Below, in pieces: positions 51,278-62,327 of a stretch of 64,000 bases of DNA (position 1 is the first letter of the stretch; the number at the start of each line of letters is the position of its first letter). This DNA is from Thalassotalea ponticola. Its GTDB lineage: Bacteria > Pseudomonadota > Gammaproteobacteria > Enterobacterales > Alteromonadaceae. Position numbers and translations under genes: made by a program. The stretch is from assembly GCF_041379045.1 (NCBI RefSeq), contig NZ_CP166871.1:2914001-2978000 (forward strand), given 5' to 3'. The notes under the pieces are model-generated. The model saw nothing but the letters and a program-made list of their open reading frames with translations. It ran no database searches and was not told the DNA's origin.

Positions 51278-51463
51278 GATGTTTAAAAAAAGTTAACAGA
51301 CCTACTGTTATACGGCGAATTGGCTGACGGGTCAAGGTTTGAGCGATTTGCAGGAGTTTAAACATCTAAACCACAACGGGATTTAAAGAGATCACATCCT
51401 CGGCATCTGCTCAATGCGTTGCTCTACCTCCTGAATCCTTGAAATCGAAAAACGTGATGGGAT

Positions 51464-51631
51464 GATGTATAGGGACATACAAATGCCAGCAGATTCAGGG
51501 ATGAATGCGTTATGGTGGTGACGTATAGGGACATACCAATGCCAGCAGATTCATGGGTGAGTAGTTTATGGTGATGACGTGCAGGGAAATACCAATGCCA
51601 GCAGGTTCATGGATGAAAGCTTTATGGTGGA
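51464..51631. repeat. three tandem 56-bp direct repeats
   Basis: Units start at 51464, 51520 and 51576. All share AGGGAcATACcAATGCCAGC, then GATTCA or GGTTCA, and end TTTATGGTGG or similar, with scattered substitutions between copies. Each contains an ATG mini-ORF starting MPAD or MPAG. They lie between prkB and rplQ. They could be a mobile or dispersed repeat family, a regulatory array, or a leftover of duplication. Confidence 0.85.
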
Positions 51632-59939: not shown

Positions 59940-60308
59940 TTATAGTACTTCTGGAGCTAGTGATACGATCTTCATGAACTTTTCAGTTCGAAGTTCACGT
60001 GTCACAGGCCCGAAAATACGAGTACCAATTGGTTGTAAGTTGGTGTTCAACATTACAGCCGCGTTACCATCGAAACGGATGGCTGAGCCATCTGGACGAC
60101 GAACGCCTTTTCTAGTGCGCACCACTACCGCGTTTAGTACATCACCCTTCTTCACTTTACCGCGAGGAATAGCTTCTTTAACAGAAACCTTAATGATGTC
60201 ACCAATGCCAGCATAGCGACGGTGCGAGCCACCTAGAACCTTTATACATTGCACGCGTCGAGCGCCGCTGTTATCAGCAACGTCTAGCTGTGATTGCATT
60301 TGGATCAT
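59940..60308 (-). CDS. rplN: ribosomal protein uL14
   Basis: The 122-residue protein begins [23 protein letters not shown] 60308 has GGAG eight bases upstream; the frame runs to 60338 but those residues lack family match. It is first in the spc operon. Unlike the usual tight arrangement, the preceding gene rpsQ is 1.58 kb away. Confidence 0.98.
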
Positions 60309-60399
60309 TTTATGTGCTCCGCTTATGTTAAAATTCAAGACTAATTAACTAGTCTTTCACTGCCTTAAAATCCATCCACTTAGAGTGAATGGGCGCGAG

Positions 60400-60408
60400 A
60401 TTATAACA
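60400..60408 (-). promoter_or_regulatory. extended -10 promoter of the spc operon
   Basis: On the minus strand TGTTATAAT matches TGnTATAAT exactly. The start point would be near 60393, about 85 bases before rplN. No good -35 is at standard spacing, as usual for extended -10 promoters. The leader contains an AAGACTA/TAGTCTT inverted repeat at 60337-60356. Confidence 0.65.
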
Positions 60409-60953
60409 CTACAAATGTAAAAGTGGTACTTTATTTAAACAAAATTTCAGACAAAGCCTAAAAAGTTAAAAACTTGTTACCAGATTCAAATATTAACTGT
60501 CTGATTTACCTTAATAAAAAACACAAACAGCAATTACAAATTGTTACTAAGTCAATGCGTACCACTGAACTTATGAAGCTCGACAGTTCGATTAAAATAA
60601 TCTCATTCCCCAAGCGCGGCACGATTATAATTTAACCAACGATATCGTACAAATTTTATACACCCCTTTTGTGTTTAAAAAATGTAACCGAGATTGGTGT
60701 CTAGTCAGTAAATAGCACTTACGTGGTTACTGCGTTCAGTTGCGCAAAGATGGGCAATACGTGCGATTCAATATGGGTACCACGGCGCGCGTGCTATTAG
60801 CCGCCAACACTTTCCTATCTCACTAATGTTTTGCTATACATAATAATGAGTAACAAACAACCAAACGATTAGTTCAAAAGCGGTTACACGTCGCGAGAGT
60901 TAGACGGATAGAACTGAGCTAGTTAACGCTGAATGTGAGATAGGAGAGACAGT
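60409..60953. other. intergenic region between spc promoter and DUF2892 gene
   Basis: About 545 AT-rich bases. They must hold the plus-strand promoter of the DUF2892 gene. I see no further gene or repeat. Confidence 0.45.
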
Positions 60954-61139
60954 ATGGGAAGCAATGTAGGGATCGTCGACAGAGTGATGCGCATCGTTGT
61001 TGGCTTGGTTATGATTTGTTGGGCGGCTACTTACGGCCCATCCTGGGGATACATAGGCATAGTACCTTTACTTACCGGTATCTTTAAATTTTGTCCAGTC
61101 TATCGTGTGCTAGGAATGAATACTTGTGGAAGACACTGA
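60954..61139 (+). CDS. DUF2892 small membrane protein (YgaP-like)
   Basis: The 61-residue protein has two hydrophobic helices (VGLVMICWAATY and GYIGIVPLLTGIFKF) and cysteine-containing CPVYRVLGMNTC. That is the DUF2892 pattern also found fused to rhodanese domains in YgaP. TAGGAGAG precedes ATG 60954. It is transcribed against the ribosomal operons and inserted between them. Confidence 0.9.
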   Translation: MGSNVGIVDRVMRIVVGLVMICWAATYGPSWGYIGIVPLLTGIFKFCPVYRVLGMNTCGRH

Positions 61140-61202
61140 TGCCATCAGTCGAAAGTATTATTTCTAGCACCGTGAGTACAGGTCATTAGTACTTGATAGC
61201 AC

Positions 61203-61233
61203 AAAAAGGGCTCCAGTGAGGAGCCTTTTTACA
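61203..61233. terminator. outermost copy of the rpsQ-type terminator (T4)
   Basis: AAAAAGGGCTCC and GGAGCCTTTTT flank a 5-base loop. It is a diverged copy of the 188-bp-array terminators and continues into the same ACAGCTTTAAGAACAATCT flank. It can stop the DUF2892 transcript or minus-strand read-through. Confidence 0.85.
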
Positions 61234-61460
61234 GCTTTAAGAACAATCTTAAATTAACAAGTTGTCTGGAACAACTTATAAGCGCATAGCGACCTGCAGG
61301 GCAGCTTATATGGAGATAAGCTGTTCTTCTTTTTCTACAACGTCAACTAAAGTCCAAGACTTAGTTTTTGAAACCTGAGGTGTTGCCACATTCAATGAAT
61401 GTGCATTTCAACATGCTTGTTGTAAGCACTTAGATATTTTCCAAGCCTATTTATAAAAAC

Positions 61461-61489
61461 AAAAAGGGCTCCCGAAGGAACCCTTTTTA
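61461..61489. terminator. array terminator T3
   Basis: AAAGGGCTCCCG and GGAACCCTTT pair, with A/T runs on both sides. Part of the 188-bp unit. Confidence 0.8.
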
Positions 61490-61648
61490 CAGCTTTAAGA
61501 ACAATCTGAAATTATGCTTTTTCTACAACGTCAACTAAAGTCCAAGACTTAGTTTTTGAAACCTGAGGTGTTGCCACATTCAATGAATGTGCATTTCAAC
61601 AAGCTTGTTGTAAGCACTTAGATATTTTCCAAGCCTATTTATAAAAAC

Positions 61649-61677
61649 AAAAAGGGCTCCCGAAGGAACCCTTTTTA
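61649..61677. terminator. array terminator T2
   Basis: Same hairpin as T3 at a 188-base interval. Confidence 0.8.
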
Positions 61678-61836
61678 CAGCTTTAAGAACAATCTGAAAT
61701 TATGCTTTTTCTACAACGTCAACTAAAGTCCAAGACTTAGTTTTTGAAACCTGAGGTGTTGCCACATTCAATGAATGTGCATTTCAACAAGCTTGTTGTA
61801 AGAACTTAGATATTTTCCTAGCCTATTCATAAAAAC

Positions 61837-61866
61837 AAAAAGGGCTCCCGAGGGAACCCTTTTTAC
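61837..61866 (-). terminator. S10-operon terminator T1, next to rpsQ
   Basis: On the minus strand AAGGGTTCCC and GGGAGCCCTT pair with one wobble, followed by TTTTTGTTTTT. It lies about 22 bases past the rpsQ stop. Confidence 0.88.
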
Positions 61867-61887
61867 AGCTTTAACAACAATCTGAAA

Positions 61888-62136
61888 TTATGCTTTTTCT
61901 ACAACGTCAACTAAAGTCCAAGACTTAGTTTTTGAAATAGGAGCACATTCACGAATTGTTACTACATCACCTTCGTTACATACGTTAGCTTCATCGTGTG
62001 CTTTCAACTTAGTTGAACGAACCATGAACTTACCGTAGATAGGGTGCTTAACACGACGCTCAATCAGTACAGTGATAGACTTGTCCATTTTGTTACTGAT
62101 AACGGTGCCTTGTAGAGTACGAATAGTTTCGCTCAT
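61888..62136 (-). CDS. rpsQ: ribosomal protein uS17
   Basis: The 82-residue protein begins [20 protein letters not shown] and ends [12 protein letters not shown]. It is the last gene of the S10 operon and overlaps the rpmC stop by one base (TAATG). Its last 50 bases are the sequence copied three more times downstream. Confidence 0.99.
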
Positions 62137-62327
62137 TATGAAGCCGCCTTCTGATTTAGGATTGTCTTAACACGTGCGATATCGCGACGTACGTTACGTA
62201 GCAAATGCGTTTGAGCTAGCTGACCAGTGCTTGCTTGCATGCGATAGTTAAACTGTTCGCGCAATAAACTTAGCAATTCAGCATTAAGCTCTTCAATGCT
62301 TTTATCTTTTAGTTCACTAGCTTTCAT
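62136..62327 (-). CDS. rpmC: ribosomal protein uL29
   Basis: The 63-residue helical protein begins [19 protein letters not shown]. It overlaps both rplP and rpsQ by one base (TAATG), implying translational coupling. Confidence 0.98.

Follow-up and report, generated by a model that had tools for sequence, protein, structure and literature searches.

The distal repeats of the Escherichia coli tyrTV locus are the long-known case of tandem repetition of a gene's 3′ end. In E. coli K-12 these repeats (rttR, tpr; RF00391) comprise 3.1 copies of a 178-bp unit directly behind tRNA-Tyr, and every unit carries a copy of the tRNA-Tyr end (19 of 24 nt, although a strict repeat-boundary script saw 6 nt only) that is split in the T-loop by a hairpin. 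REP and BIME elements, a second kind of known repeat, are short palindromic sequences, dispersed and partly tandem, with Y1 (RAYT) transposases and a conserved tetranucleotide beside the stem. The locus described here lies in a 64,000-nt stretch of the Thalassotalea ponticola genome, the whole of which is called the window, and has a layout similar to that of tyrTV, in which a gene is followed directly by tandem units that each repeat its own 3′ end. The host gene, however, is rpsQ and not a tRNA gene, and only the last copy in the window is split, by a 72-nt hairpin insert termed R1, in the way that the E. coli copies are. A full-text literature search, judged from its result lists alone, returned no account of such arrays.

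The array occupies the gap between rpsQ (61888–62136, minus strand) and rplN (59940–60308), with the following features.

61888–62136, minus strand: rpsQ, ribosomal protein S17 (82 aa), intact, its last 50 nt forming the first tail; an open reading frame present in 15/15 genus genomes.
61750–61937, minus strand: unit 1, with rpsQ tail (61888–61937), UTR, terminator-like hairpin (61835–61866) and spacer, from TRF, copy alignment and hairpin scan.
61562–61749, minus strand: unit 2, with tail copy (61700–61749), hairpin (61647–61678) and spacer; 5 differences from unit 1.
61374–61561, minus strand: unit 3, with tail copy (61512–61561), hairpin (61459–61490) and spacer; 1 difference from unit 2.
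61329–61373, minus strand: fourth tail, the first 45 of 50 nt, without the stop codon.
61257–61328, minus strand: R1 element, a 72-nt hairpin insert breaking the fourth tail, from the 2 bases found there in G014, the fold and the model match.
61201–61256, minus strand: diverged fourth UTR and terminator-like hairpin (stem 61209–61225), from copy alignment and hairpin scan.
61387–61403, also 61575–61591 and 61763–61779, no strand assigned: spacer palindrome CACATTC-AAT-GAATGTG, from a pattern search.
60954–61139, plus strand: gene for a small YgaP-like membrane protein (61 aa), convergent with rpsQ (Pfam PF11127, E 2.1e-20).
59940–60308, minus strand: rplN, the next ribosomal-protein gene, start codon from translation.

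TRF reported a tandem array at 61329–61937 with a period of 188, 3.2 copies, 98% matches and a score of 1176, confirming that the 188-bp array behind rpsQ is real. A sequence-only reading of the locus had placed four rpsQ ends, stop codon included, at 188-bp steps; the array stood, but only three tails reach the stop (the gene itself and the copies at 61700–61749 and 61512–61561). The fourth is 45 nt long, lacks the stop, is interrupted by 72 nt at a point 5 nt before the tail end, and is followed by a block (61201–61256) whose 88% identity to the other blocks bears out the diverged terminator that had been placed near 61203. Ungapped 238-nt copies start at 61324, 61512 and 61700, the second and third being 99% and 97% identical to the first. 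A single base separates 61374–61561 from 61562–61749, and 61750–61937 differs from these two at 6 and 5 bases, respectively, in keeping with the stepwise duplication proposed earlier. Read along the rpsQ strand, each unit opens with 50 nt of rpsQ end that include the stop; a short UTR then leads to a hairpin of 14 pairs with a U run, and a palindrome-bearing spacer closes the unit. The unit was not found anywhere else in its own genome (one contig, 3.35 Mb). Since the last 33 nt of the gene are matched at 33, 33 and 31 positions by the window copies, against a best of 20 in 10 shuffles of this locus and at most 22 at any locus, chance is excluded. Elsewhere in the window, the next ribosomal operon ends with an rplQ-like gene, and about 200 bp beyond it lie three 56-bp tandem copies (51463–51630); by eye these do not appear to be copies of the tail of that gene.

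The comparison of the rpsQ-rplN gap in relatives, which had been put forward as a check, showed that tail arrays recur in other species. A search with the stretch matched 52/59 genomes (own included), many across rpsQ only, and gaps were compared in 32 other genomes of the family, 28 genomes of a second genus of Colwellia type (g63) and some other genera. By rpsQ, the closest named record, at 89%, was Thalassotalea sp. PP2-459, a candidate member of the window's genus. The family sample was not random, and the g63 genomes were picked because their rpsQ tail fitted a pattern. A copy was defined as an ungapped match of at least 24/33 within 1500 nt to a gene's own last 33 nt, counted from the last rpsQ Trp codon; no locus gave a match above 22/33 in 10 shuffles, and sub-threshold copies (22–23/33) in G189, G356 and G388 were left uncounted. 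Copies of the own tail were present in 10/15 genus genomes (1–6 copies) and in 11 of the 26 judgeable g63 genomes (1–5 copies; 2/28 had less than 100 nt downstream and were left out, and G028 was unscored), and in none of 27 other family members in this non-random sample. The array was absent from 5/15 genus genomes, 15/26 g63 genomes and several wide-gap genomes of other genera. Copy spacing was 188 bp in G000 and G014, 183 in G004, 172 in G013, 220–233 in G001, 178 in G076, 152 in G207 and 67 in G411. None of the 15 genomes with rplN at most 500 bp from rpsQ had tail copies, so arrays accompany a widened rpsQ gap. In most g63 genomes (L243–L270) rplN was not found in the downstream sequence retrieved, at most about 12 kb, and the S10-spc junction therefore seems broken there. 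Small palindromic inserts are found between AAGTCT and TGGA in g63 tail copies (e.g. L260), and their start, AAGTCTGC, is shared with copies in the other genus (G004, G008, G010 and G011). As a dispersed repeat these inserts were set aside: a pattern search of 10 genomes gave 5 matches, 3 in rpsQ arrays and 2 elsewhere with 3 mismatches.

A tree of upstream S10-operon DNA (67 sequences, 3 loci being too short) separated the two array genera with support of 1.0 (15 sequences) and 0.895 (28 sequences), and array-free genera, mostly with a compact gap, fall between them. The arrays of the two genera thus probably have two independent origins, although inner nodes of the tree have weak support. 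The palindrome CACATTC(n)GAATGTG has 19 sites in 9/15 genomes of the genus, every one behind rpsQ, and the insert occupies the identical tail site in G000, G008 and two units of G012. The palindrome and insert site are shared within the genus, and the array is therefore partly inherited. As a regulator site the palindrome was rejected, all 19 genus sites being behind rpsQ, with matches also in 13/280 other family genomes. The earlier suggestion that the spacer resembles rpsQ upstream of the tail was upheld: ATTC(n)GAATGTG in the spacers corresponds to rpsQ ATTCGTGAATGTG, an exact correspondence in G013 (by eye), and the first duplication probably had its start inside rpsQ at a point upstream of today's 50-nt stretch of identity. 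For the 95 nt after the tail, 12/21 arrays show closer likeness within the genome than to the rpsQ of any other species, which points to concerted evolution including the gene's own end. Several of the 9/21 arrays that lack this higher likeness belong to near relatives that are almost identical anyway; among the exceptions, the insert in G008 shifts the comparison, the short units of G411 do not hold the compared part, and G006 and G010 are plain exceptions. The plainest case is G013 (L048): the S17 C-terminus is lengthened by TLIK and the array units have the same DNA insert, evidence of sequence exchange between array and gene.

On the minus strand the same terminator-like hairpin follows each stop-bearing tail, as the sequence-only reading had stated (stems 61866–61835, 61678–61647 and 61490–61459; fold of 61450–61523 in unit 3, −20.7 kcal/mol, z −3.2). 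Each unit carries the stem-loop and U run of a predicted intrinsic terminator, and the four stacked terminators proposed from the letters hold as sequence only, with 5 terminator-like sites in 60300–62300 against 1.6 expected. A transcription roadblock in both directions, also proposed, was not borne out by the scan: the array hairpins are terminator-like on the minus strand only, and the sole plus-strand site (61298–61327) lies inside the insert and tail. Across the arrays, a further scan placed a hairpin with a U run behind 36/46 downstream copies. The stems of the G076 copies differ on both sides (AGCCC..GGGCT versus AGACC..GGTCT), suggesting conservation of the pairing. G411, with units of 67 bp, has a terminator behind the last unit only, so terminators are unnecessary for expansion and tails can multiply alone.

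The 72-nt hairpin insert, the recurrence of the arrays in other species and the parallel at tRNA genes all go beyond the earlier reading. At the position of the insert G014 has 2 bases in place of 72 nt (query 1–56 ends at 3013839 and query 129 begins at 3013842). The window insert folds with a z of −2.5 and is matched at 61247–61341, with 92.5 bits, by a covariance model built from four rpsQ inserts, the window copy among them. A BLAST-type search of the own genome with the insert returned only itself; the structure model found relatives, with 55 matches at E ≤0.1 in 12/14 genus genomes (1 match in the own genome), as expected of a dispersed multi-copy palindrome, and at E ≤0.001 it had matches in 31/89 family genomes. 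In an alignment of 26 distinct rows from 23 chosen sources, fitted to the structure of the model, 94.6% of cells pair and two-sided change occurs in 20/23 pairs; the covariation score was 0.547, against 0.125 in shuffled and at most 0.088 in slid alignments. G-U accounts for 3/537 paired cells without the loop-closing pair and 22/558 with it, compared with 29/307 in 22 hand-picked terminator stems from the arrays. RNA helices tolerate G-U pairs, and since these are nearly absent from R1, its stems look maintained as DNA. R1 looks like a DNA element of the REP type: it is short, palindromic, dispersed and partly tandem, and Y1 transposases co-occur with it, being present in 11/14 genus genomes, the own genome among them (above the cut-off in 10). 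R1 matches were found in 11/11 Y1-bearing genus genomes and in 1/3 of those without Y1 (by hand, one-sided Fisher p ∼0.03). The E. coli hairpins are RtT (4 matches at L304) and R1 is not: RtT (RF00391) had no match in 60300–62300 (E up to 1) or at 9 tRNA-associated loci (E up to 5). Tandem R1-like hairpins with a period of about 70–75 bp follow directly after other terminators at L333 (2001–2381) and, behind rpsQ, at L037, with no evident gene tail.

Among 55 R1 matches in a set of 44 sources, 23 lie downstream of tRNA genes (Pro, Phe, Ser, Tyr); the others comprise the 4 rpsQ tail inserts, 3 weaker matches at or behind rpsQ, 1 beside 5S rRNA (by eye) and 24 unclassified. Requiring 8-mers on both flanks of R1 (12/55 versus 33/825 controls) proved too stringent for T-loops, and a gene-centred test of the tRNA end was used instead, in which at least 14/18 nt of the 3′ end of that tRNA follow R1 directly in 16/23 cases and in 24/3949 controls. 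Split tRNA copies read as the left half of the T-arm, R1, and the right half of the T-arm through CCA. The direct repeat starts 18–19 nt from the gene end (CCA), in the T-loop, in 9/14 scored loci and 7, 9, 15, 17 or 40 nt from the gene end in the other five; in six single-copy cases 109–161 nt separate the direct repeats. Because these loci were found via R1, they allow no inference on R1-free tRNA arrays. At L327 (1845–2400) and L313 (1847–2150), R1 split-tail units lie behind a tRNA-Tyr gene located after 23S and 5S rRNA; tRNA-Tyr is also the host of the E. coli tyrT repeats. In other genera of the family (L334 and L341), the T-arm part of the tmRNA end is repeated behind the tmRNA gene and split by an R1-type hairpin (by eye); the last 9 nt of the gene end are not copied at these loci.

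With somewhat better than even confidence, we read the locus as a minisatellite of the 3′ end of an essential gene, tandem-duplicated and R1-colonised, which places a series of terminators after the S10 operon. Tandem duplication would have set copies of a segment running from within rpsQ through its terminator behind the gene; S17 is encoded by the first copy, which therefore has to remain intact, whereas the downstream copies would be able to diverge. Copy number would then change by unequal crossing-over or gene conversion, which would also keep the units of a species, the true end of rpsQ included, similar to one another, a step supported by the pattern of likeness rather than by events as such. 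The REP-like R1 would then have colonised a downstream copy; the intact gene would hardly tolerate it. Transcripts passing the first terminator would meet two near-identical ones and the diverged fourth, and the extra terminators are expected to provide modest backup termination and to have no dedicated regulatory role. The arrays without closer within-genome likeness, the terminator-poor units of G411 and the array-free relatives weigh against this reading, and the tRNA duplications start at a fixed T-loop point in most scored loci, which random slippage does not predict. That regularity would suit site-specific mini-elements, an unlikely account that we nevertheless take seriously, in which a hairpin-ended DNA element enters a dyad in the gene's 3′ end and leaves a new gene end and terminator on its left and the displaced tail right of the hairpin, with repeated entry or tandem expansion producing the array. 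The spacing of the single-copy tRNA repeats, the position of R1 directly before tRNA ends, its nearly G-U-free stems and the co-occurring Y1 transposases are all consistent with such entry. It fits poorly, however, with the 6/10 genus arrays that have no R1 match inside (G001, G004, G006, G010, G013 and G014, the last being outside the draw of 14 genus genomes used for the model search), two of which (G001 and G013) belong to genomes with neither R1 nor a Y1 transposase at the thresholds used; nor does it explain the five tRNA loci with other starting points or the tmRNA copies lacking the gene's last 9 nt, and none of the 8 gap proteins scanned (Pfam) is an integrase.

Selection for a stack of terminators required to separate the S10 operon from its neighbours would account for the hairpins behind most downstream copies, the two-sided stem differences of G076 and the convergent gene on the opposite strand of the window, but we consider it improbable: arrays are missing in many relatives, the G411 units lack terminators of their own, and young units would hold the hairpin even without selection. 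That each unit encodes a small regulatory RNA is more improbable still. The units fold well (−48.2 kcal/mol for a whole unit, a value without shuffle control) and end in terminators, and the E. coli tyrTV repeats carry an annotated ncRNA; in 60300–62300, however, promoter-like sites are not in excess (6 versus 5.3 expected) and an Rfam scan gave no match above the gathering score, and the unit sequence varies between species. An assembly artefact can be given hardly any credence, since other single-contig genomes (G001 and G004) hold arrays of other unit length; the own genome is likewise one contig, and its units differ from each other.

As a minisatellite, the rpsQ array resembles bacterial VNTR loci in its tandem, near-identical units and in a copy number and period that vary, but an essential gene's end lies inside its first unit, and the variation known here is between species. 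The tRNA loci resemble the attachment-site duplications of integrative elements, in which the gene end is restored and a 3′ part duplicated from the T-loop, although the units are about 150–190 bp long and hold no genes. A general class may be proposed, tentatively and with more doubt than belief, in which DNA-hairpin elements (R1-like and, by layout, RtT) enter 3′-end dyads of essential genes, restore the gene end, leave split tails and then expand; if true, it would cover the rpsQ array, the tRNA-Pro, -Phe, -Ser and -Tyr and tmRNA arrays of marine Gammaproteobacteria and the E. coli tyrT repeats. Because the covarying hairpins contain almost no G-U, the idea that such repeats originate at the DNA level can be put to a direct test. 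An essential gene end appears to co-evolve with its own non-coding copies and, as in G013, can thereby alter the C-terminus of the protein. Taken together, the 3′-end arrays, which follow rpsQ in two genera and also several tRNA genes, suggest that the E. coli tyrT repeats are more than an isolated oddity.
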